IMG/VR virus record: IMGVR_UViG_3300042146_000125 | Span: 1-22,797 of that record | DNA from: a virus | Reading direction: 5' to 3' (one strand) | Length of the DNA stretch: 22,797 bases | In this document: piece after piece, positions 6,383 through 16,225 of the stretch | How positions within the stretch are numbered: position 1 is the stretch's first letter | Layout: the number at the start of each line of letters is the position of its first letter | Notes under the pieces: generated by a model | What the model saw: only the letters and a program-made list of their open reading frames with translations | Database searches by the model: none | What the model was told of the DNA's origin: nothing | Translations under genes and position numbers: made by a program

Positions 6383-6834
6383 GCCCACTGCGTGACAAAT
6401 ACCTGAACCTGTTCATGGCTCAGGCCTATGCCGCCGAGGCTCAGTCTGAGGCTAAACGGGAACAGGTCGGCTGCGTGATCGTGTCCCCTTCGGGGGCAAT
6501 GGTCACCGGCTGGAATGGACAGCCCGCAGGCCACCACACCAACCGCTGCGAAAACACCCCAGTCGAGGAAGACGGCGTGCCTCGCATGAAGACCGATCGT
6601 TCGGTGCTTCACGCCGAAAACAACGCCATGGGTTGGGCACTACGTAGCGGAACTTCGCTACAAGGTGCCTGGATGTTCACCACTGTCGCGCCCTGCGACG
6701 TCTGCGCCCGCACCATTATCCCATCCGGCATTGCCCGGGTGTTCTTCCACCGTTTCCACGACGATATGACCGGCATTGAGCTATTAGCTGAAGCCGGTAT
6801 CGACGTACGTAGTCTGCCGCACTTCAAGGAGTAA
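6379..6834 (+). CDS. Deoxycytidylate (dCMP) deaminase family protein
   Basis: A 151-aa zinc-dependent cytidine/deoxycytidylate deaminase. The catalytic H78-A-E80 (in VLHAENNA) and the P105-C106-x2-C109 motif (APCDVCA) provide zinc ligands and the proton-shuttling Glu. GWNG at 44-47 matches the conserved GxNG segment of dCMP deaminases that contacts the substrate. The expected reaction is dCMP to dUMP, feeding dTTP synthesis during phage replication. Length is typical of phage dCMP deaminases. The start shares ATGA with the preceding gene's stop. No thymidylate synthase is visible in the window. A cytidine or tRNA deaminase is less likely because of the GWNG and the 30-residue insert before HAE. 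Confidence 0.92.
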   Translation: MSPLRDKYLNLFMAQAYAAEAQSEAKREQVGCVIVSPSGAMVTGWNGQPAGHHTNRCENTPVEEDGVPRMKTDRSVLHAENNAMGWALRSGTSLQGAWMFTTVAPCDVCARTIIPSGIARVFFHRFHDDMTGIELLAEAGIDVRSLPHFKE

Positions 6835-6836
6835 AA

Positions 6837-7301
6837 ATGGCCAAGTCTCTGCATGCACCCGGCAAGTTCGGTAACGCACCGGTCAACGGCCGGTATTTCT
6901 TCGTTCATCGTACCAGCCGCTGCGTGCGGAGCTGGGACATGGACTCGTTGCCGGTACCCGGAAACTGGGAACAGGTTTCCCTCGAAGAATGGGTAGCGTT
7001 CCGTAAGGAAACGCTGAAGATCCCCCTCAAGAAGCGTAAAGCGCTTCATGCCACGCTGTATCAGGAGGTTCCATGCAAGTCCGACTCACCACCACCATCA
7101 GCACCATCATCGACATCGATCCCGAAAACACCACGGAATTCGCCACCGCGAAAGCTGAAATCTTCGGCACCTACAATACCAACCTCGGTATTGACGCCCG
7201 CCAAGAGCAAAGCATCGAAGCCGTCCAAGCGCTCCAAAGCGGCTCCGTCATCTACGACCGTATCGTCGGCACCGAGGTCACGCACTCGTTCGAGGAAGTG
7301 A
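6837..7301 (+). CDS. Uncharacterised protein with probable stop-loss extension
   Basis: The start follows AAGGAG at 6826-6831 with 5 nt spacing. The first 79 residues look like a normal globular domain: basic N-terminus, aromatic YFFVHRT, and a WEQVSLEEWVAFRKE helix. From codon 80 the frame runs inside the next gene (7073-7306) and gives a Pro/Ser/Lys-rich string without the look of a folded domain. In that stretch the other frame has strongly G/C-ending codons, so this tail is probably fortuitous. Codon 7074-7076 is TGC where TGA would produce the same ATGA junction used at 5990, 6040, 6379, 7303, 8815, 17160 and 17537. I therefore infer that the original stop was lost and the protein gained about 75 residues. 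Function unknown. Confidence 0.6.
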   Translation: MAKSLHAPGKFGNAPVNGRYFFVHRTSRCVRSWDMDSLPVPGNWEQVSLEEWVAFRKETLKIPLKKRKALHATLYQEVPCKSDSPPPSAPSSTSIPKTPRNSPPRKLKSSAPTIPTSVLTPAKSKASKPSKRSKAAPSSTTVSSAPRSRTRSRK

Positions 7302-7306
7302 AATGA
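7073..7306 (+). CDS. Uncharacterised 77-aa protein
   Basis: The start ATG at 7073 has a strong CAGGAGG site at about 7062-7068. Codons in this frame end almost entirely in C or G, as in neighbouring real genes, which makes this the coding frame of the region shared with the upstream gene's tail. The product has a strand-like start (MQVRLTTTISTIIDID), then an Ala/Glu/Gln-rich helical body and a final strand. No catalytic or metal motif is visible. It overlaps the upstream frame by 229 nt and the downstream small gene by 4 nt (ATGA). Confidence 0.75.
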   Translation: MQVRLTTTISTIIDIDPENTTEFATAKAEIFGTYNTNLGIDARQEQSIEAVQALQSGSVIYDRIVGTEVTHSFEEVK

Positions 7307-7464
7307 GCGAGCCAGAAGAAGTCGCGCTGCGCATCAAAGAGCAGCATCCCGAATACTTCCCGCTCTCTTCCCGTCACCAGGCTGTTAGCATTGCTACCGG
7401 CCAGATGCCCGAAGAGAGCATCACCATTATCCAGGCGGTGGCCGACGCCCTGTTGGAGCTGTAA
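7303..7464 (+). CDS. Uncharacterised 53-aa protein
   Basis: A short gene that is easily missed. ATG at 7303 overlaps the preceding stop (ATGA), and GAGGAAG at about 7292-7298 is a suitable ribosome site. The frame ends at TAA 7462-7464, three bases before the next ATG. The peptide is acidic and probably helical (MSEPEEVALRIKEQ, then an ITIIQAVADALLEL helix at the end). Codon use matches the neighbours. The last helix is amphipathic, suggesting a protein-protein contact. Function unknown. Confidence 0.65.
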   Translation: MSEPEEVALRIKEQHPEYFPLSSRHQAVSIATGQMPEESITIIQAVADALLEL

Positions 7465-7467
7465 ACC

Positions 7468-7989
7468 ATGAAGGTAAGTATCCGCAAGATTGAAGACCTG
7501 CGCATTGAAGACGAAGCCACCGCGGAAGTCATCATTGTGTCGTTGGTCGATGAATCGCCCGGTGTTGGGCGCATTGTTGTGCAAGGCGGTGGGCAGACCA
7601 ATAGCTGCTACTGGAGCAACATGGGCAAGCTGTCTACACGGGAATTCTTCCTCGCCGCGACAGATCGCTACATTGTTGGCTGTCTCGACCCGTTTGGCAC
7701 CCTGCACCGCAAGATTGACCCCAAAACACTGGCCGGCATCGTGATGCTGGACATTGAGGCAGCGGAAAACATCGACGATGAGCAGAAACTCGTGTTAACC
7801 GCACGAACGCAGGAGTTCACGCCTATTTCTGACGTAAATGGTCTTTACGCACTGAACAACGAACTGTTGACCAAAATCTACGGGCCAATGTGGACGATTC
7901 AGGTAAGTGAACGCTTCCTCGGACAACATCCGTTGTACACAGGATTGTTTGCACGAATAGCTACGATTCGACAGGTTCTGTTGGGCTGA
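7468..7989 (+). CDS. Uncharacterised phage protein (173 aa)
   Basis: ATG at 7468 follows GGAG at 7455-7458. The product starts with strand-rich acidic sequence, then has GGGQTNSCYWSNMG at about residues 40-53 followed by a REFFLAATDRYIVGCL segment. I associate the YW-x-NMG ... FF ... Y-(I/L) pattern with uncharacterised proteins of several Gram-negative phages, but cannot name a family. The second half is helical and polar, ending in LFARIATIRQVLLG. No membrane segment or nucleotide-binding loop. It is the last gene before the short gap with the holin inverted repeat, so its mRNA may run into the holin leader. Confidence 0.75.
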   Translation: MKVSIRKIEDLRIEDEATAEVIIVSLVDESPGVGRIVVQGGGQTNSCYWSNMGKLSTREFFLAATDRYIVGCLDPFGTLHRKIDPKTLAGIVMLDIEAAENIDDEQKLVLTARTQEFTPISDVNGLYALNNELLTKIYGPMWTIQVSERFLGQHPLYTGLFARIATIRQVLLG

Positions 7990-7996
7990 GTGTATC

Positions 7997-8054
7997 TCTC
8001 CGGTCAATTTGCCACTATTATGTGCGCTGGCCAGATTGGGCCTCTGACCGGAGA
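7997..8054 (+). promoter_or_regulatory. Inverted repeat able to sequester the holin ribosome site
   Basis: Two perfect 10-bp arms, TCTCCGGTCA at 7997-8006 and TGACCGGAGA at 8045-8054, are separated by 38 nt. The right arm contains GGAGA, the ribosome binding site of the holin ATG at 8061. In an mRNA that includes both arms the site would be paired and translation reduced. A TATTAT box lies in the loop, so a transcript starting there would lack the left arm. That arrangement is known for phage T4 lysozyme gene e; its use here is inference. It could instead be a protein-binding dyad in DNA. Confidence 0.55.
8016..8021 (+). promoter_or_regulatory. Candidate -10 box inside the holin leader
   Basis: TATTAT matches five of six bases of the sigma70 -10 consensus. 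No convincing -35 box is found 16-18 nt upstream, so the promoter would be weak, activator-dependent or recognised by another factor. A start near 8028 would place the left arm of the leader inverted repeat outside the transcript. Confidence 0.25.
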
Positions 8055-8060
8055 TTCGCT

Positions 8061-8390
8061 ATGCCATGGAAACACGATCCTACCGTATCCGGTACGATTT
8101 TCGCCGTAGTCCTCAGCTTGCTCTCTGGTTTCTTGTCCGTGGCTTCTGCCTTGGCCAAGGGCCAGAAATTCTCGCTGTTGTGGCTCTCTGCTCAACTGAC
8201 CGGCGCAGTATTGGCCGGCTGGCTTGTTTGGGACATGTACCCAGTCATTGCCGACAGCGTGCCGGGCTGGTTCACCCAACCGATTGCAACGTCGGTCGCT
8301 GCGCACTACGGGGGCAAACTCTTCTCGATTGTCGAGGGGGTGCTAGGAAAACGCTGGGGAGTGGAGACACCGCCCCCGGCTCAACAATAA
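8061..8390 (+). CDS. Holin, LydA-like (holin superfamily III)
   Basis: A 109-aa small membrane protein. Segments compatible with membrane spans are at about residues 10-27 (GTIFAVVLSLLSGFLSV), 37-56 (LLWLSAQLTGAVLAGWLVWD) and possibly a weaker third one at about 68-88. The AAHYGGKLFSIVE segment near residues 80-92 matches the conserved GG-x-x-(F/L)...E region of LydA-type holins. Charged C-terminus (GKRW...PPPAQQ). Holins form inner-membrane lesions that let endolysin reach the peptidoglycan and set lysis time. I chose ATG 8061 with GGAGA at 8050-8054; an in-frame ATG at 8022 lacks a ribosome site and lies within the leader. It is followed directly by a terminator. The endolysin and spanin genes are on the opposite strand, downstream and convergent. 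Confidence 0.82.
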   Translation: MPWKHDPTVSGTIFAVVLSLLSGFLSVASALAKGQKFSLLWLSAQLTGAVLAGWLVWDMYPVIADSVPGWFTQPIATSVAAHYGGKLFSIVEGVLGKRWGVETPPPAQQ

Positions 8391-8395
8391 CCACC

Positions 8396-8420
8396 AAGCC
8401 TCGCACTGCGGGGCTTTTTT
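8396..8420 (+). terminator. Rho-independent terminator after the holin
   Basis: The stem AGCCTCGC / GCGGGGCT (8397-8404 and 8408-8415, one T-G pair) closes a 3-nt loop and is followed by six T residues at 8415-8420. It begins 6 nt after the holin stop. It would end transcription of the left replication operon, leaving the two following genes to read-through or an unseen promoter. Confidence 0.85.
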
Positions 8421-8431
8421 ACGGGTGCCGT

Positions 8432-8818
8432 ATGGCAAGAGACCGAAATAGCAACCCAATGGGGCTGCTGCATGGTGACATCGTCATCGCTACGGCGATC
8501 TCCCACTACCCGCCGCACATTGGCGGGGGTAAACAGTCACAGGACATCGGCGATATGCTGATAGTCAACAATCCGCATCCGTCTGGTTTTGTTCAAGGAC
8601 AAAGTCTGATGCCTGGGGCTGAAGGGTTAGGTACCAGCCTGCATGCAGGCACCTACCGGCTGGCCAAGCCGTCGGACAAGTATTACGTCATGACGGTGCA
8701 GGAATGGGACCGTTATCAACCAGAGCGCGCTGTGCGTGCGCTTTACAACCTCAACTTTGGCACTCAGCTCGCTATTGCGTGCGGGATTGCCATGATGCTC
8801 ATAAAGGCATTCGCATGA
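8432..8818 (+). CDS. Uncharacterised protein with C-terminal hydrophobic segment (128 aa)
   Basis: The frame is open far upstream, but only across the holin gene, so I start it at ATG 8432 just after the terminator. A weak GGG at 8423-8425 is the only ribosome-site candidate; ATG 8459 is an alternative. The product has no clear signal peptide. It has a Gly/His/Pro-rich first half (HYPPHIGGGKQ), a middle polar part with YYVMTVQEWDRYQ, and a C-terminal hydrophobic helix TQLAIACGIAMMLIKAF that could anchor it in a membrane. Its place between the holin and the convergent spanin genes and the hydrophobic end make a lysis-related role (for example an antiholin or second membrane factor) possible, but nothing proves it. 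The stop overlaps the next ATG (ATGA). Confidence 0.6.
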   Translation: MARDRNSNPMGLLHGDIVIATAISHYPPHIGGGKQSQDIGDMLIVNNPHPSGFVQGQSLMPGAEGLGTSLHAGTYRLAKPSDKYYVMTVQEWDRYQPERAVRALYNLNFGTQLAIACGIAMMLIKAFA

Positions 8819-9096
8819 GTAACGACAAACCAGTAAAAAGATACTTCACCGTGGTCTTCGAGATCACCAACGAAGAAAACTTCACCGGCATGTTTGCCGG
8901 CCCGTTCACCAAGTCATTGGCCGAGGATTCGGACATCATTGAAGGGGTGAAGGTAGTTTCTTGCGGGCGCGGCGACACCATGACCGCCTATGACGCGCTG
9001 GCCCACAATCTGGAAGCCAACGGCCAGGATGCAGATGATTGCGTACGGGAATACTGCGAAGAGAACGAAATTGATGCCAAGTCAATTATCGGTTGA
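8815..9096 (+). CDS. Uncharacterised acidic protein (93 aa)
   Basis: ATG at 8815 overlaps the preceding stop (ATGA) and follows AAAGG at about 8803-8807. The product begins MSNDKPVKRYFTVVFEITNEE, with strand-like segments and an acidic second half (ANGQDADDCVREYCEENEID) holding two cysteines. No motif recognised. It is the last rightward gene of the left block and ends 8 nt before the bidirectional terminator hairpin that separates it from the convergent spanin genes. Confidence 0.65.
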   Translation: MSNDKPVKRYFTVVFEITNEENFTGMFAGPFTKSLAEDSDIIEGVKVVSCGRGDTMTAYDALAHNLEANGQDADDCVREYCEENEIDAKSIIG

Positions 9097-9128
9097 AAAA
9101 GAAGCGGGGCCTATTGGCCCCGTGCTTT
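9097..9128. terminator. Bidirectional terminator between convergent operons
   Basis: CGGGGCC (9105-9111), loop TATT, GGCCCCG (9116-9122) form a perfect 7-bp stem. On the - strand it is followed by a T-rich stretch (complement of AAAAAGAAG at 9096-9104), giving a strong terminator for the tail/lysis operon. On the + strand only CTTTA follows, so termination there is weaker. The stem overlaps the last codons of the Rz gene. Confidence 0.8.
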
Positions 9129-9617
9129 ATCGTACATCTGCTCGACTTTTAAGGCTCGGTTGCGAGATTCGTCAAACGATCCCGCGAGATCTTGTCGCTC
9201 TGTGCTACAGCTTGCAAGCAAGTCGGTGAGCACCATTGCGGCGCGGGTAACTGACGAAACTGTGCTGGAATTGCCGGAAGCATTACTGGTTCGCTGTAAA
9301 CGTAGCTGGAGGGAAGAGATTTCCCCGTGCAAGCCGTTAAGAGCAGCATCAGCGTCAGATTTAACGCGCTGGCTTTCAGCCCGTTGTTTATCGTTGATTT
9401 CCAGTTGATTTGCGAGGTCATCGCGTAATCCCCGTTCTGTTTCACGTTGCTTAGTTTCGAATGCTGCCTTGGCCGTCGCTTCATCCGCATTGCGTGATTC
9501 CCAACGGGCTAGCCAGCCCTTGTCGTTATAGTCGACGCCTTGAGCGAAACCTACGCCCAAAGCCCCGACGACGAGCACTATAGCAATCCAGTGCGCGCCG
9601 AGGAAGGCTTTGATCAT
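9111..9617 (-). CDS. Rz: Rz-like i-spanin (inner membrane spanin subunit)
   Basis: A 168-aa protein with a single N-terminal membrane anchor (about residues 9-28, WIAIVLVVGALGVGFAQGV) and a long, charged, mostly helical periplasmic domain (about 35-165) of Rz type. With Rz1 it would fuse inner and outer membranes at the last step of lysis. Support comes from the position right after the endolysin and from a complete lipoprotein frame embedded within it (9149-9421), the hallmark of Rz/Rz1 pairs. ATG 9617 abuts the endolysin stop TAA (9618-9620), and a GGGGG site lies within the endolysin's last codons. The C-terminal codons overlap the terminator stem at 9105-9122. Confidence 0.85.
   Translation of the reverse strand: MIKAFLGAHWIAIVLVVGALGVGFAQGVDYNDKGWLARWESRNADEATAKAAFETKQRETERGLRDDLANQLEINDKQRAESQRVKSDADAALNGLHGEISSLQLRLQRTSNASGNSSTVSSVTRAAMVLTDLLASCSTERQDLAGSFDESRNRALKVEQMYDKARGQ
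9149..9421 (-). CDS. Rz1: Rz1-like o-spanin lipoprotein, embedded in Rz
   Basis: A 90-aa lipoprotein encoded wholly inside Rz in a different frame. The signal sequence runs MTSQINWKST..., with a hydrophobic core ALNLTLMLLLTA and a lipobox LLTAC at C31; the mature part is 60 residues. It is relatively proline-rich near its start (LPSS, EPVMLPAIPAQ, LPAP), typical of Rz1. It would be lipidated, sorted to the outer membrane, and pair with the Rz periplasmic domain. The frame is open further upstream to 9490, but ATG 9421 gives a normal-length signal sequence and has GGGGA about 8 nt before it. Two extra cysteines (WCSPTC) in the mature part may form a disulphide. The embedding is complete: both start and stop lie within Rz. 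Confidence 0.82.
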   Translation of the reverse strand: MTSQINWKSTINNGLKASALNLTLMLLLTACTGKSLPSSYVYSEPVMLPAIPAQFRQLPAPQWCSPTCLQAVAQSDKISRDRLTNLATEP

Positions 9618-10118
9618 TTAGACCCCCAATTCTGTACGGGCATTCGCGTATGCGGTAGCCCATGTGTCTTTGTGCGGTTTACCCGGGCGCCAGTTCTTGA
9701 TGTAGGTCGCCCAACCTGCTTCAGCATCACCGATCTTAGGCAATTTGCCCATATCGGTCAGTAGGAGCAGTCGAGCGAAACCAGCGCCAAGAACATCATC
9801 GTGTTCCATCGCAGACCAGACAGCAGCCGACGTTGGTGCCACATCCCGTACCGCACAGAGACGTTTGGCCAGGGTAGCGGAGCTGGCGTGCGTAAGCACA
9901 CCTTTGACACCACCGCCCTGCTCAAACTGCCAGAAACTGGTAGCCGGACCCAAAGGGACCAACTTGCCATCCTTCTTGATGATTTGACGTCGGGCAGTGA
10001 ATTTAGTTTCCTGCCCCCCGATGGCCAACACTTCCAATTTGGATTCGTTGCTGCCGTATTTGTCGCCGAGGATCTCGATGGCGATGTTCAGTGCGGTGTG
10101 TGCCAGCTTAATGCTCAT
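9618..10118 (-). CDS. Endolysin (lysozyme-like muralytic enzyme)
   Basis: A 166-aa protein without signal peptide or membrane span. Visible features: an early GGQETKF segment with Glu at about residue 36 in the position expected of a catalytic Glu in lysozyme-fold enzymes, then GPATSFWQFEQGGG at about 57-70 and a C-terminal W-x-Y-x-x-NWRPGKP region. I associate the FWQFE(Q/K)GGG and WRPGKP pattern with putative phage lysins that cut the glycan strand; the exact bond is not shown. The location directly upstream of Rz/Rz1 gives independent support. ATG 10118 is preceded by AAGGAA, partly overlapping the stop region of the 152-aa tail-tip gene. Without its own signal, export depends on the holin, encoded on the other strand at 8061. 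Confidence 0.8.
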   Translation of the reverse strand: MSIKLAHTALNIAIEILGDKYGSNESKLEVLAIGGQETKFTARRQIIKKDGKLVPLGPATSFWQFEQGGGVKGVLTHASSATLAKRLCAVRDVAPTSAAVWSAMEHDDVLGAGFARLLLLTDMGKLPKIGDAEAGWATYIKNWRPGKPHKDTWATAYANARTELGV

Positions 10119-10130
10119 GTGTGTTATTCC

Positions 10131-10145
10131 TTAGAACCAACGGCC
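10131..10145. repeat. 15-bp tip repeat (copies also at 10630-10644 and 11416-11430)
   Basis: TTAGAACCAACGGCC is present at 10131-10145 and 11416-11430, and with one change (G for A) at 10630-10644. It encodes the GRWF-stop end of the three tail-tip proteins. It could serve as a homology point for exchange between them, but may simply reflect shared ancestry. Confidence 0.8.
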
Positions 10146-10589
10146 AATAGCGACCAGAGAAATAGTTAAAGCCGCAGATGCAAATGAAGATGCACTGACA
10201 ATTGTCAGCCCGCCCGAACCTGTGGTGGTTGCCAGGACACCTGCGCCCCACATAACTGCCCCTACGCCGTATACGGAGGCAATGGTGCAAATAGGTGCGG
10301 CTATAAAAGTGGCGGCGAAAGCTTGCGAGGCAATGTTCGCGTACCACATCGAACCAAAAGCGTTGTTGACGTTATACGTCCCCGAAACTACTCGTGTGCA
10401 TATCATGGTGCCATCAGCATATTTGATGTAATTGCCGTTGGCATTAGAACCTGACTCGATGATCGCCCCGGTCGGAATACCCGCTGCTTGTGCTACTGCT
10501 CCAACCGCACCAGCTCCCGTGGAAGTTGCACCGGTACCACCTTCAGCAATCCCCAAGATATTCTTTGACTTCAATCGCGCTTTAGACAT
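10131..10589 (-). CDS. Short tail-tip/receptor-binding-type protein (152 aa)
   Basis: The third and shortest member of a nested series. It begins with LKSKNILGIAEGGTGAT, related to the HGGTGGNTQ segment of the 737-aa fibre, then has the G(I/V)PTGAII.S...Y.KYADGTMIC segment shared by all three, and ends in AIGRWF. Between them is a Gly/Ala-rich strand-forming region (residues about 75-145) specific to this copy. Such YADGT...GRW modules are found at the C-terminus of phage tail fibres, where they form the distal receptor-binding tip. AAGGAG at about 10597-10602 gives a clear start. With no N-terminal anchor domain it could be a trimerising add-on, a chaperone-like tip or a reserve cassette; which is not known. 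Confidence 0.7.
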   Translation of the reverse strand: MSKARLKSKNILGIAEGGTGATSTGAGAVGAVAQAAGIPTGAIIESGSNANGNYIKYADGTMICTRVVSGTYNVNNAFGSMWYANIASQAFAATFIAAPICTIASVYGVGAVMWGAGVLATTTGSGGLTIVSASSFASAALTISLVAIGRWF

Positions 10590-10605
10590 GTGTTACTCCT
10601 TGGTT

Positions 10606-10621
10606 TGCCCCTTGCGGGGCA
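10606..10621 (-). other. Intergenic stem-loop with GCAA tetraloop
   Basis: Read on the - strand, TGCCCC-GCAA-GGGGCA forms a 6-bp stem with a GNRA-type loop, between the 247-aa and 152-aa tail-tip genes and about 4 nt before the AAGGAG of the latter. No T-run follows, so it is not a classical terminator. It may protect mRNA ends or limit translation coupling. Confidence 0.55.
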
Positions 10622-10629
10622 GTAATTAG

Positions 10630-11373
10630 TTAGAACCAGCGGCCTTCTGCTCGGTAGACGATGGTATAAGATGAGCTGGCACGAGTGATAGCACTGTACA
10701 AGAACCCTGCTTGGGTTTGCGTTACAGTCCCGTAACCGACACCGGCCCACCAGCAGGAGAGGGATTCACCAATGACTGAAGCCGTCTCAAAAACCAAGGA
10801 AACAAACGGAATAGGCCAGTTTTGTGCGGCTTCAGCAGCAGGGGTGATAAACATACTGCCATAGGCTTGGTTGATATCACGAGTAACCACCCGTTTAATC
10901 ACCTGAATCATTGTTCCGTCGGCATACTTGATATAACCACCGCCAGCACCCCAGCTCGATTGTAAAATGGCTCCTGTGGGGATGCCACCAGACTGGCTAA
11001 CCACACCAACAATGTTAGCTTTCTGTACAAACCGTGCATCATCTTCAGCTTTAGTATAAACGTCAGCCACGGCAAAAGTACCGAAGGCATACATGCGCAC
11101 CAAAGCCCCCACTTCAGCGCCCGAAGTCAGCGTCAGGACACTGGAACTGGTAGTGGCGTAGTCCACGGTCTTCTGCAACACACCTTCGTTGTAAACGACC
11201 AGGGTGTTGGCCGGGATGTAGTTCAAGGTCAGGCCATTGTTGTCCGCGCCGCTGAACACAGTCTGGCCGGCAGTCGCGGTGTATTCGTAAACAATCAGTG
11301 TGCTGCTGGATGCCGCGGCCAGAGCATCCAACTCTTTGGCTAATCCTGACAGTCGTTGTGCTTTAGATGTCAT
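10630..11373 (-). CDS. Tail-tip protein, partial copy of the large fibre (247 aa)
   Basis: The protein starts with a short helix (MTSKAQRLSGLAKELDAL), then a beta module of about 85 residues (LIVYEYTATAGQTVFSG ... MYAFGTFAVADVYTK) that is clearly homologous to residues of the 737-aa fibre (LVVYEFLATAGQTVFSG ... VMAFGTFSVANHYTK). It continues with YTKAEDDARFVQK, the G(I/V)PTGAI segment, KYADGTMI, and a C-terminal tip ending EGRWF. It therefore resembles the distal half of the fibre without its anchor and coiled coil. I prefer ATG 11373 (GGGGA 6 nt upstream) to ATG 11385. The middle of the tip (about 160-240) differs strongly from the other copies, as expected for host-specificity determinants. 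Confidence 0.75.
   Translation of the reverse strand: MTSKAQRLSGLAKELDALAAASSSTLIVYEYTATAGQTVFSGADNNGLTLNYIPANTLVVYNEGVLQKTVDYATTSSSVLTLTSGAEVGALVRMYAFGTFAVADVYTKAEDDARFVQKANIVGVVSQSGGIPTGAILQSSWGAGGGYIKYADGTMIQVIKRVVTRDINQAYGSMFITPAAEAAQNWPIPFVSLVFETASVIGESLSCWWAGVGYGTVTQTQAGFLYSAITRASSSYTIVYRAEGRWF
11020..11058. repeat. 39-bp duplicated segment (second copy 11917-11955)
   Basis: The two stretches are identical at 36 of 39 positions and encode the YTKAEDDARFVQK motif of the 247-aa and 737-aa tail proteins. A third, more diverged copy lies at about 12010-12040 within the large fibre gene. The close match at DNA level points to a relatively recent duplication or conversion. Confidence 0.8.
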
Positions 11374-11388
11374 GCAAATCCCCATAAC

Positions 11389-11404
11389 CGCCCTTTTCAG
11401 GGCG
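11389..11404 (-). other. Intergenic stem-loop with GAAA tetraloop
   Basis: On the - strand CGCCCT-GAAA-AGGGCG forms a perfect 6-bp stem with a GNRA loop, located 11 nt after the stop of the 737-aa fibre gene and upstream of the next start. No T-run follows. It mirrors the GCAA stem-loop at 10606-10621. Confidence 0.55.
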
Positions 11405-11415
11405 ATTGTTAAAAG

Positions 11416-13629
11416 TTAGAACCAACGGCCCCAAGCGATACAGTCAATTTCAAGCGTGGTGGATACCGATGCAAGAGTAATAACATGCGCTGGTACCCAG
11501 GCTGTGAGTGTACGGGTACCTGCAACTAGGCCGGGAAATCCGTACCAGCTATCCATACGCACCGTATAACTCAGTTTGGGCAGCTCGCCAACAAAGGCTT
11601 TGAGGTAGTTAACGCCGCTCACCAAAATGGCTGTATCACGCGTGCGCCACATCGGCCCTACTGCAACATCCAAGGCGTATACAGTGGGTGAACGAAAGCG
11701 ATAGGTGCACACTTGTGTACCGTCTGCAAAGCGGGTGCAGGTACTTCCTGCGCCATCAGTTGTGTATTCGATAATGGAGCCCGTTGGGACACCTCCAGTC
11801 TGCGTAACGGTTCCCAGAATGTCAGCAACAGCAGCCGTTTTAAGCCCCAGCCCAGTACGTGCCGTTTCCTGTGTGTTGCCACCGGTACCACCATGAGCAA
11901 CATCGATAACGTCGGTTTTCTGCACAAACCGGGCATCATCTTCAGCTTTGGTATAGCGATCCGCGAAACCAGCATCAGTACTGGTTTTGTTGGCTTTGGT
12001 CAGCAGTAGCGCGTCGTCTTCAGCCTTGGTGTAGTGGTTGGCCACCGAGAACGTGCCGAACGCCATGACTTGGATCAGATCGTTCAGATCGTTGGCCGTC
12101 ACGAAGGTCACAGAGCTGCCGTCGGTAGCTGTGTAATCGACGGTCTTTTCCAGTTGCACACCGTTGCGCAGCACAATGGTGCCCGTGCCTGCGGTGTACA
12201 ACAGTGTCAGGCCATTGGCGTCGACACCCGAGAATACAGTCTGCCCAGCCGTGGCCAAGAACTCGTAAACCACCAGAGTCACGTTGTTGGCTTGGATCAG
12301 ATCGTAAAGCGACTTGCCCTGCTTGGCCGACAGCACTTTAGTGGCGTCGGTGCTGGTCAGGTCATCAACGATGCTGGTTTTGTCGATTTTCAGGTCCAGC
12401 GCGTTCTGTTGAGGCGTGCTGACAGGTTTGGCCGAATCCGCTGTGTTATCTACCAGAGGCAAGCCCACATCCGATTTAACCAGCGTCACGACACCGGTTT
12501 TGCCCGCTACCGACGACACGTTCTCAGTGTTGTCGATTTTGTAAAACAGGTCTTGGTCTTTGGCGTAGAACAAGGAATCGCCAATGCCGTAGGTATCGCC
12601 TTGCGGGCCAGACACGGTACCGCCAACAGTGACCTTCCACATGGTCGAGTGAGTCGGTGCAGTCGGATACGTACCGCCAGACAAGTCGATAGGCCCACCG
12701 TCCTGGATGATTGCCCCGAGAGTGCCCACCGCGGCCATCGCGTCATCGCGGTAACCCAAGGTTTCATCCTTGAGGGCCGTCACGTCAGTCTTCAAACCAG
12801 TGATGGTGACGACATCCGCTGCCGTAGCCACCTTGTCCGCTTCCGTAGCAACAGCGTCGGCAGCCGTGGCAACCCGGTCCGCGGCAGTCAGCGCAGCGTT
12901 GGCAGTCGAAGTGTTCGCCGCAGTAGTGGCGATGCCTGCTTGCGCAGTGGCTTCATCGACCTGCGCCTGCATATCCACGACGGCACCAGCCGCGAAATCA
13001 GCAGAGGCTTGCGCTGCCAGGGCACTACCTGCGGCAGCATCCTCAGAGGCCTGCGCTGCAACTTCGGAGGCCAGGGCAGCCACTTGCGAAGCACTGGCTT
13101 GAGCTGCCTTGTCGATAGCCACCAGTTCGCTGGCCTTGGCCGCGTTTTCGCTGAGCTTGGCATTGTCCTCAGAGGTCTTGGCCGCCAGCTCACTCGCGTC
13201 GGCTGCTACAGCCGAAGCTTCGGCGCGGTCGGCAGCGTCGGTCGCAGTGACCTTGGCGTCGATGATGATCTGTAAAGCGACCTCATCCCACGGCCGCGAC
13301 CATGTAGGGGTCGTGACAATCAGGTCTTCCACATGCAGTGTGGTTGCGGACTCAACGACCATGAAGCGGTAGCGCAAACCAGCAGTGCAACCATCATCAC
13401 CCGGTACCGCGCCGGGATTATTCATAATCAGGTAATACGTGGCGAATCCCGCCATCAATTCGAGGGTTGCCTCGCCTTGAGCGTCAGTGGTGCCGTTAAC
13501 ATCACCCGACACCTGAATACCGTTGTTGAGCGTCTCATCGAAGCTCGGTTTCCGCGTTGTAACGAGAAACGGCGCATCAACTACCGGAGTCCCGTCAGGA
13601 TGCGAAAATTTGAACAAAACAGCAGTCAT
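11416..13629 (-). CDS. Large tail fibre protein (737 aa)
   Basis: The N-terminal ~125 residues form a beta-rich, Ig/carrier-type domain (MTAVLFKFSHPDGTPV ... DLIVTTPTW) that would attach the fibre. Residues about 125-290 are an Ala/Ser/Glu-rich heptad-like coiled coil with repeated ASE/AAQAS/ATAADxVAT units. A linker with a VAGKTGVVTLVKSDVGL motif, common in fibre shafts, follows near 370. Then come an LVVYEFLATAGQTVFSG module, two YTKAEDDA repeats, AHGGTGGNT, GGVPTGSI, RFADGTQVC and a terminal tip ending AWGRWF. AGGAGA before ATG 13629 sets the start. It follows a terminator hairpin at 13643-13668, so its expression may need read-through or a local promoter. Trimeric fibre and receptor binding are inferred from family architecture. 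Confidence 0.88.
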   Translation of the reverse strand: MTAVLFKFSHPDGTPVVDAPFLVTTRKPSFDETLNNGIQVSGDVNGTTDAQGEATLELMAGFATYYLIMNNPGAVPGDDGCTAGLRYRFMVVESATTLHVEDLIVTTPTWSRPWDEVALQIIIDAKVTATDAADRAEASAVAADASELAAKTSEDNAKLSENAAKASELVAIDKAAQASASQVAALASEVAAQASEDAAAGSALAAQASADFAAGAVVDMQAQVDEATAQAGIATTAANTSTANAALTAADRVATAADAVATEADKVATAADVVTITGLKTDVTALKDETLGYRDDAMAAVGTLGAIIQDGGPIDLSGGTYPTAPTHSTMWKVTVGGTVSGPQGDTYGIGDSLFYAKDQDLFYKIDNTENVSSVAGKTGVVTLVKSDVGLPLVDNTADSAKPVSTPQQNALDLKIDKTSIVDDLTSTDATKVLSAKQGKSLYDLIQANNVTLVVYEFLATAGQTVFSGVDANGLTLLYTAGTGTIVLRNGVQLEKTVDYTATDGSSVTFVTANDLNDLIQVMAFGTFSVANHYTKAEDDALLLTKANKTSTDAGFADRYTKAEDDARFVQKTDVIDVAHGGTGGNTQETARTGLGLKTAAVADILGTVTQTGGVPTGSIIEYTTDGAGSTCTRFADGTQVCTYRFRSPTVYALDVAVGPMWRTRDTAILVSGVNYLKAFVGELPKLSYTVRMDSWYGFPGLVAGTRTLTAWVPAHVITLASVSTTLEIDCIAWGRWF

Positions 13630-14912: not shown

Positions 14913-16193
14913 TTAGATACTCAACGCAAAGGCCATGACACCGTTGGAGTGATACCCGTAAACGCCGCTGCTTTGAATCAGCAAGCGCCCGGCACCACCA
15001 CGACCGTTGATTTGGAAGTCACCGTTGGCAGCCAACGACCAACCGGTGGAGGCATTTACATAGTTGTTCGATTGCGCTGCCCGCACCACCAAAGTGTCCA
15101 CTTCAATGTACTGTGCCTTCACCTTGCCATTGGCCACAACGAAGCTGCCTGATTCATCACGCAGCTTGCTGAAGGTCAGCTTGTTGATCGCAGCATCGTC
15201 GATGTACACCACATCGTTCTGAACAATGAAAGGCTTGCGCTTGTTGGCGCCAGTGCGACCTATCCAGAAGCGATCCACGTCAAAGCCGGCCTCCACCTCG
15301 GTACCATCGTTATAGATACCGAAGCCGCCAATTAAACCGTTCACGTTGACTTTTGCCGTGTACAGGGCACCGATGGACACAACCTTGCCATCTACCACGT
15401 CAATCTTGGTTTCCAGCGTTTGGGAGACTTGAGCCAAGTCTTCACCGAACTGGGTTTCCAAAGTGGTGATTTGCTGCGCGAGTGCTTGCACATCGTCCAC
15501 AACAGCTGTGATTTGGGTCTGTACCGCAGCAATGTTGCCGTTCACCTCAGCCCACAGCGTGTTCACCGTCGAGACGAACGCCTCGTTCGAAGAGGTACGC
15601 GCAAGAACCTCAGTTTGCAGAAGTGCGCGAGTCTCGTCGGAATACGCACCCACCACAGTGATTTGTGCTGCAAGTGCATCATCTTCGCCTTGGCGATCCA
15701 ATTGCTCCTGCGTGATGTTCAGGTGGTTCAATTCGATGCGGGCGATCTCAGATTTCAACGAAACTGCCAGAACGCCAGCGTCAATCTTCCCGGTCAGCTC
15801 TTCGATCATCTCTTCGATGCGAGGCTTAGCAGTTGCCCAGGCCGGTCCGATTAATCGTGAAGGTGTGCCGTAAACGGAGTGAACGATGATCCAGTAGTAG
15901 AACTGGGTCACAACACCGTATTCGATGCGGTCGTAGAAGAAATTGCCGGACGCTGCTGCAACATGCACCGCTGCACCGTTGAAGTCAGCCGAAAGACCAC
16001 GATAGATCGTGGTGTAGGCTACAGCTTCAGGAAAGGTGTCAGGCCACGTCCAAGTCAGGTCAATACCGCCAAATGCAGGCACTGCATGCAGCAATAGGTC
16101 AGATGTGTTCGGATCTCCGGGCTTTGGGCCACCCCAACCCCCGGTACCACAAACATAGTCACCGGATGCGGTGATGGAACAAACTTCGCTCAT
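14913..16193 (-). CDS. Tail-tip protein resembling the C-terminal part of gpJ (DUF1983 region)
   Basis: A 426-aa protein. Residues about 33-122 resemble a fibronectin type III fold (IDLTWTWPD ... YTTIYRG ... FYYWIIVHSVYG). Residues about 128-280 are a long helical, coiled-coil region with repeated QIT/QTQI heptads. Residues about 280-370 match the DUF1983-type segment of lambda gpJ-like central tail proteins (YTAKVNVNGLIGGFGIYNDG, then FDVDRFWIG, PFIVQNDVVYID). The end is strand-rich. Typical gpJ proteins exceed 1000 residues, so the upstream part is either a separate gene elsewhere or missing. AAGGGGG at about 16197-16203 gives a good start. It is the first gene of the leftward operon, directly after the divergent control region. 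Confidence 0.8.
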   Translation of the reverse strand: MSEVCSITASGDYVCGTGGWGGPKPGDPNTSDLLLHAVPAFGGIDLTWTWPDTFPEAVAYTTIYRGLSADFNGAAVHVAAASGNFFYDRIEYGVVTQFYYWIIVHSVYGTPSRLIGPAWATAKPRIEEMIEELTGKIDAGVLAVSLKSEIARIELNHLNITQEQLDRQGEDDALAAQITVVGAYSDETRALLQTEVLARTSSNEAFVSTVNTLWAEVNGNIAAVQTQITAVVDDVQALAQQITTLETQFGEDLAQVSQTLETKIDVVDGKVVSIGALYTAKVNVNGLIGGFGIYNDGTEVEAGFDVDRFWIGRTGANKRKPFIVQNDVVYIDDAAINKLTFSKLRDESGSFVVANGKVKAQYIEVDTLVVRAAQSNNYVNASTGWSLAANGDFQINGRGGAGRLLIQSSGVYGYHSNGVMAFALSI

Positions 16194-16219: not shown

Positions 16220-16225
16220 ATTCTA
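16220..16225 (-). promoter_or_regulatory. Candidate leftward promoter -10 (TAGAAT)
   Basis: On the - strand TAGAAT (five of six bases of TATAAT) lies 26 nt before the ATG of the gpJ-like gene. The sequence 16-17 nt upstream (GTGTTT/TGTTTG) is a poor -35, so an activator or a phage-specific factor may be needed. This is the only plausible promoter I see for the tail/lysis operon. Confidence 0.35.

Follow-up and report, generated by a model that had tools for sequence, protein, structure and literature searches.

We found no description in the literature of how N4-like phages, with a holin gene placed last in a replication operon, prevent its expression until virions are ready. The locus discussed here is part of a Schitoviridae (N4-like) phage record of 22,797 bases, referred to below in its entirety as the window; among the products of the window are a DUF2201 metallopeptidase/VWA protein, a Dda-like helicase, DNA polymerase A, a primase and SSB. 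The holin gene is located on the plus strand downstream of the replication genes, and its assignment to the Schitoviridae holins of PHROG 6854 is based on the profile match together with the gene context, phage phCDa having the same neighbours. The closest named relatives at this locus are the Pseudomonas phages phCDa, Littlefix, 98PfluR60PP, LUZ7 and LIT1. The relevant features are as follows:

7468..7989, plus strand: upstream gene, 173 aa, PHROG 3451 (unknown function), from the list of open reading frames
7984..7992, plus strand: left strand of an outer helix, GGC at 7984-7986 and AGTG at 7989-7992, from minimum free energy (MFE) folds
7997..8006, plus strand: left (anti-RBS) arm TCTCCGGTCA, from the inverted repeat, with pairs kept and covarying in relatives
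8011..8022, plus strand: conserved box GCCACTATTATG, including the -10-like hexamer TATTAT (8016-8021), from the alignment and a positional test
8028, plus strand: predicted transcription start, 7 nt past the hexamer (+/-2), inferred from the box position
8029..8042, plus strand: small hairpin GGCC-AGATTG-GGCC with which the predicted local transcript would begin, from folds
8045..8054, plus strand: right arm TGACCGGAGA with the Shine-Dalgarno-like GGAG at 8050-8053, from the inverted repeat, with GGAG in 9/9 aligned leaders
8061..8390, plus strand: holin, 109 aa, PHROG 6854 holin (E 7.8e-31), RefSeq homologues named holin
8396..8420, plus strand: intrinsic terminator AAGCCTCGC-ACT-GCGGGGCTT followed by a T run, just 3' of the holin gene, from the fold
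9111-9617, minus strand: spanin, same strand as the tail genes
9618-10118, minus strand: probable endolysin, PHROG 3108 (function unknown), same strand as the tail genes

Within the spanin gene, an embedded frame (9149-9490, minus strand) with a lipobox-like LMLLLTACTG gives the usual Rz1-inside-Rz layout. Three consecutive tail-fibre-like frames at 10131-13629, also on the minus strand, resemble one another in their C-terminal part (GG.PTG.I...ADGT) and each terminate in GRWF, a pattern that looks like a duplication of the fibre tip. Regarding the holin gene itself, the annotated start in phCDa (gp85, L001 2926-3324) is placed 75 nt 5' of the conserved MPW start, taking in the locked leader, and in KPP21 (L015 1636-1818) and DL64 (L021 1618-1818) the annotated starts lie downstream of it.

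The first-pass annotation had described perfect 10-bp arms that hold the holin Shine-Dalgarno sequence in a stem, with a TATTAT box in the 38-nt loop between them, and both elements were borne out—the arms are paired at 10/10 positions, the GGAG is contained in the right arm ahead of the holin ATG at 8061, and the hexamer lies within the loop. The leader RNA (7988-8085) folds with -33.3 kcal/mol compared to a shuffle mean of -24.0 (z -3.0). The outer helix is formed by pairing of AGTG (7989-7992) with CGCT (8057-8060) and of GGC (7984-7986) with GCC (8062-8064); hence, the start codon is also enclosed and the structure is larger than first noted. The TGA stop of the upstream gene (7987-7989), located 7 nt 5' of the left arm, overlaps this outer helix. 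In L023, both sides of the outer helix are altered (AGTA/TGCT), and at the equivalent of 8029-8042, hairpins of other sequence are present in L024 (CGGCT/AGCCG) and L029 (CTGTC/GACAG).

The length of the arms was rejected as evidence, since chance alone yields, on average, 1.4 perfect 10-mer inverted repeats (loop of at most 60 nt) in simulated sequence matched to the window in size and composition, and the window contains two; the significance of the element derives from its conservation and position instead. Also rejected were a known RNA family, on account of an Rfam search that returned no match at E values up to 1, and a transcription attenuator, given that the right arm has no U run on its 3' side.

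Covariation of the arms in related phages had been proposed beforehand as a check, which the element passed. In an alignment of nine distinct leaders, comprising the window and eight relatives, nine consecutive pairs are standard throughout, and one stem pair switches between G-C (five leaders) and A-U (four leaders); the tenth, loop-side pair is A-U in six leaders, G-C in two, and broken (A-C) only in the window. The arms are retained even in L029, whose holin identity of 50% is the lowest within the aligned set. The covariation reflects few independent events, perhaps one to three, and is, thus, supportive rather than overwhelming. Among more distant leaders, Littlefix and 98PfluR60PP possess RBS-sequestering arms of new sequence in the same place (CTCCGT/ACGGAG), L032, with 37% holin identity, has the arms AGACUUUUUCGU/ACGAAGGAGUCU forming a 12-bp helix with two G-U pairs, and in LUZ7, an upstream segment spanning the box pairs with the start codon and the first codons.

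The predicted effect of removing the sequence 5' of the predicted start was assessed for every gene as the free energy needed to open positions -20 to +3 in read-through RNA versus RNA cut at -36. Gene lists were taken as deposited, except that the holin start of phCDa was shifted to the conserved MPW start; for the window, we used our own reading of the list of open reading frames. The gain from the cut is highest at the holin gene, which ranks first among 98 genes in phCDa, 82 in LUZ7 and 24 in the window. In the window, opening the ribosome-binding site is predicted to cost 22.2 kcal/mol in the read-through RNA versus 10.2 kcal/mol in the local RNA, the latter being near the mean of about 9 kcal/mol per gene in these phages. 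The right arm can also pair with ATCCGGT within the window's holin gene, which may partly mask the ribosome-binding site in the local RNA. Upon shuffling the upstream 64 nt only (300 times), the observed value was reached by none of the shuffles in the window, L022, L023, L024 and L027, and by at most 7/300 in L025-L027, phCDa, L029, Littlefix, L032, LUZ7 and LIT1. Opening cost, first rank and covariation together predict that the ribosome-binding site of the read-through RNA is held in a helix, as in leaders of the T4 gene e type.

The lock is clade-limited. Evidence for it is weaker in LUZ7, where 7/300 shuffles match the observed value, and the lock is weak in its relative KPP21 (28/300) and in L043 (17/300); it is absent, according to the same upstream-shuffle test, from the leaders of CB4, FBKp27, Presley and L044-L046, and is, therefore, not essential to the whole family. 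The L045 leader contains a strong hairpin (GCTGCTC...GAGCAGC, approximately 1461-1500) entirely downstream of the -10-like box and ahead of the start codon, which would sit on both mRNA forms and constitutes a different kind of holin leader.

The box in the loop is conserved in sequence as well as in position. GCCACTATYAT is shared by eight of the nine aligned leaders, in which the box takes the form TATTATG or TATCATG, and the hexamer variants of relatives (TATCAT, TACAAT, TAGAAT) are still found 30–45 nt 5' of the ATG. Requiring at least five of six matches with T1, A2 and T6 fixed, a -10-like hexamer is present at this distance in 19/21 holin leaders versus 3/81 other genes of LUZ7, a count that overstates the number of independent cases, since the 21 leaders are partly of recent common descent and represent roughly eight to ten lineages. 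The three LUZ7 genes—two tail fibre genes and the major head gene—are all late structural genes. phCDa is less clean, with a similar box at 4/97 other genes, only one of which (a tail gene) is late. In the window, only one further gene has such a box, namely the first of the minus-strand tail-fibre operon (GGTGTAGAATCGG). The gene at 14913-16193 is preceded by the extended -10-like box GGGGTGTAGAATCG (16220-16225, minus strand), which is also found in phCDa gp93 and is a candidate for the late promoter of the tail-fibre operon.

Assuming a start 7 nt after the hexamer, the predicted transcription starts lie 33–39 nt 5' of the ATG in 14 of 15 leaders computed and 26 nt 5' of it in L032. For the holin-leader box, no -35 element is recognisable, the -35 region being poor, and a generic sigma-70 scan of 6500-9500 listed nothing, the box included. 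A poor -35 would suit an activator-dependent late promoter, which it does not prove. The exact 12-mer box occurs once per genome, and the 12-mer was rejected as a repeated promoter of a phage RNA polymerase on this basis. What lies between the arms is a candidate promoter with a positionally conserved -10-like box and no -35 element; by its resemblance to the boxes before tail and head genes, it is also a putative late promoter of the N4 type.

The terminator is predicted to fold with -13.8 kcal/mol (z -2.5) in the window, and all 20 leaders examined carry a hairpin plus T run 3' of the holin stop codon. Together, box and terminator make the holin gene look like a one-gene transcription unit within a longer operon. 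Both are present in the leaders of CB4, FBKp27, Presley and L044-L046, which have no lock; such distant relatives include phages of Pectobacterium, Klebsiella and Acinetobacter. This pattern points to an older promoter, to which the lock was added as a further layer.

In N4, middle genes are transcribed by the phage's T7-like RNAP II, and late genes by the host sigma-70 RNA polymerase, which is recruited by N4 SSB (PMC4496689). Considering the arms, their covariation, the position of the box, the terminator and the top-ranked predicted release of the ribosome-binding site, all of which are contained in the sequences, it is likely that the holin leader is a cis-acting RNA lock on the read-through mRNA, similar to that of T4 gene e, which is bypassed by a local late promoter in the loop. 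Read-through transcripts from the upstream replication-gene operon, made by the phage's own RNAP II as in N4-like phages, would carry both arms; the paired arms would bury the holin Shine-Dalgarno sequence and the outer helix would enclose the AUG, resulting in poor holin translation. Late in infection, the host sigma-70 RNA polymerase, redirected by the phage SSB as in N4, would start at the TATTAT box in the loop, near 8028. The local mRNA would be missing the left arm, begin with the small hairpin and end at the terminator 3' of the holin gene, with a Shine-Dalgarno sequence approximately as open as that of an average phage gene. In this way, the local late start would tie holin production to late, replication-coupled transcription. 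The resemblance to T4 gene e, already proposed in the first-pass annotation, is supported by the covariation of the arms and the conserved box at a fixed position; from these, we infer promoter activity, the polymerase involved and its timing as well as the difference in translation, so that the dynamic part of the model is a prediction.

Four other explanations have to be weighed. The same lock could be combined with a local start that is a middle promoter of RNAP II, in which case it would set the holin level within the middle phase and there would be no late switch; the N4 RNAP II recognises a short AT-rich element spanning -7 to +2 (PMC4496689), and the holin box is AT-rich and located in a middle-type operon. 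We consider this unlikely, because the family's box variants follow the TAnnAT hexamer pattern also seen before tail and head genes, and the replication genes upstream in the window do not have the holin box.

Less probable again is a purely translational damper that lacks an internal promoter, i.e., a fold that cuts holin synthesis on one operon mRNA and is, perhaps, modulated by ribosomes at the upstream stop. Conservation of the fold would agree with such a role, as would the upstream TGA, which overlaps the outer helix just 5' of the left arm; however, a ribosome terminating there would melt the main stem at most in part, GCCACTATYAT is conserved (8/9 leaders) beyond what a mere loop needs, and the -10-like hexamer persists in relatives without the lock.

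A stem preceding a phage gene could plausibly serve as a substrate of RNase III, and the arms might be a processing site at which RNase III or another nuclease cuts the read-through stem to free the ribosome-binding site; yet, a main stem of about 10 bp is short for RNase III, and the conserved -10-like box would be left unexplained, which makes this explanation very improbable. Equally remote is a DNA operator, in which the inverted repeat flanks the promoter as a repressor site and no RNA element exists, given that—while DNA half-sites would covary, too—the two G-U pairs of L032 are compatible with RNA pairing and disrupt the symmetry of the DNA, arm spacing is variable, the Shine-Dalgarno sequence is always within the right arm, and LUZ7 pairs different segments.

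Building on the lock with its local late promoter, a more far-reaching proposal can be made tentatively, its chances being somewhat short of even: the leader may be a lysis timer that responds to the RNA polymerase by which the message was transcribed—locked if made by RNAP II, open if made by the SSB-recruited host enzyme—so that lysis would be coupled to DNA replication. According to this proposal, the timer would have originated independently of T4, and its arms would have been replaced by different ones in the LUZ7 branch, whose left arm extends over the promoter box. If true, lysis timing would be linked to SSB-driven late transcription.

Concerning known systems, the leader shares with the dual-start leader of lambda S an RNA structure close to the start of the holin and a GTG at 8022 that lies upstream and in frame; however, this GTG has no Shine-Dalgarno sequence and is out of frame in L022, the loop of which is 1 nt longer, and a dual-start holin was rejected for these reasons. 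With N4 late promoters it has in common a -10-like element, there before late genes, and an SSB gene in the window, whereas the holin box is on the plus strand at the end of the replication operon and N4 late transcripts run leftward (PMC4496689).

The closest known systems are T4 gene e, soc, gene 49, I-TevI, segB and Aeh1 mobE. In T4 gene e, long early transcripts hide the ribosome-binding site in a helix, and a late promoter between the arms gives rise to short mRNAs without the 5' arm (PMC3014915, PMC2988022), the longer e mRNA yielding about 100-fold less lysozyme (PMC3014915); this arrangement is used for gene e and I-TevI, and inhibitory structures are also found at soc and 49 (PMC3014915, PMC2988022). 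A homologue of the gene e leader RNA was rejected, as there is no shared sequence, no TATAAATA promoter and no Rfam match. In contrast to gene e, the holin lock is a sequence-based prediction; it belongs to an unrelated phage family with unrelated sequence and guards a holin instead of an endolysin; its box is of the sigma-70 type, while the T4 late promoter is TATAAATA; two different polymerases would make its two mRNAs; and the holin gene has its own terminator. If the model is true, the trick of T4 gene e has evolved more than once, here on a holin.
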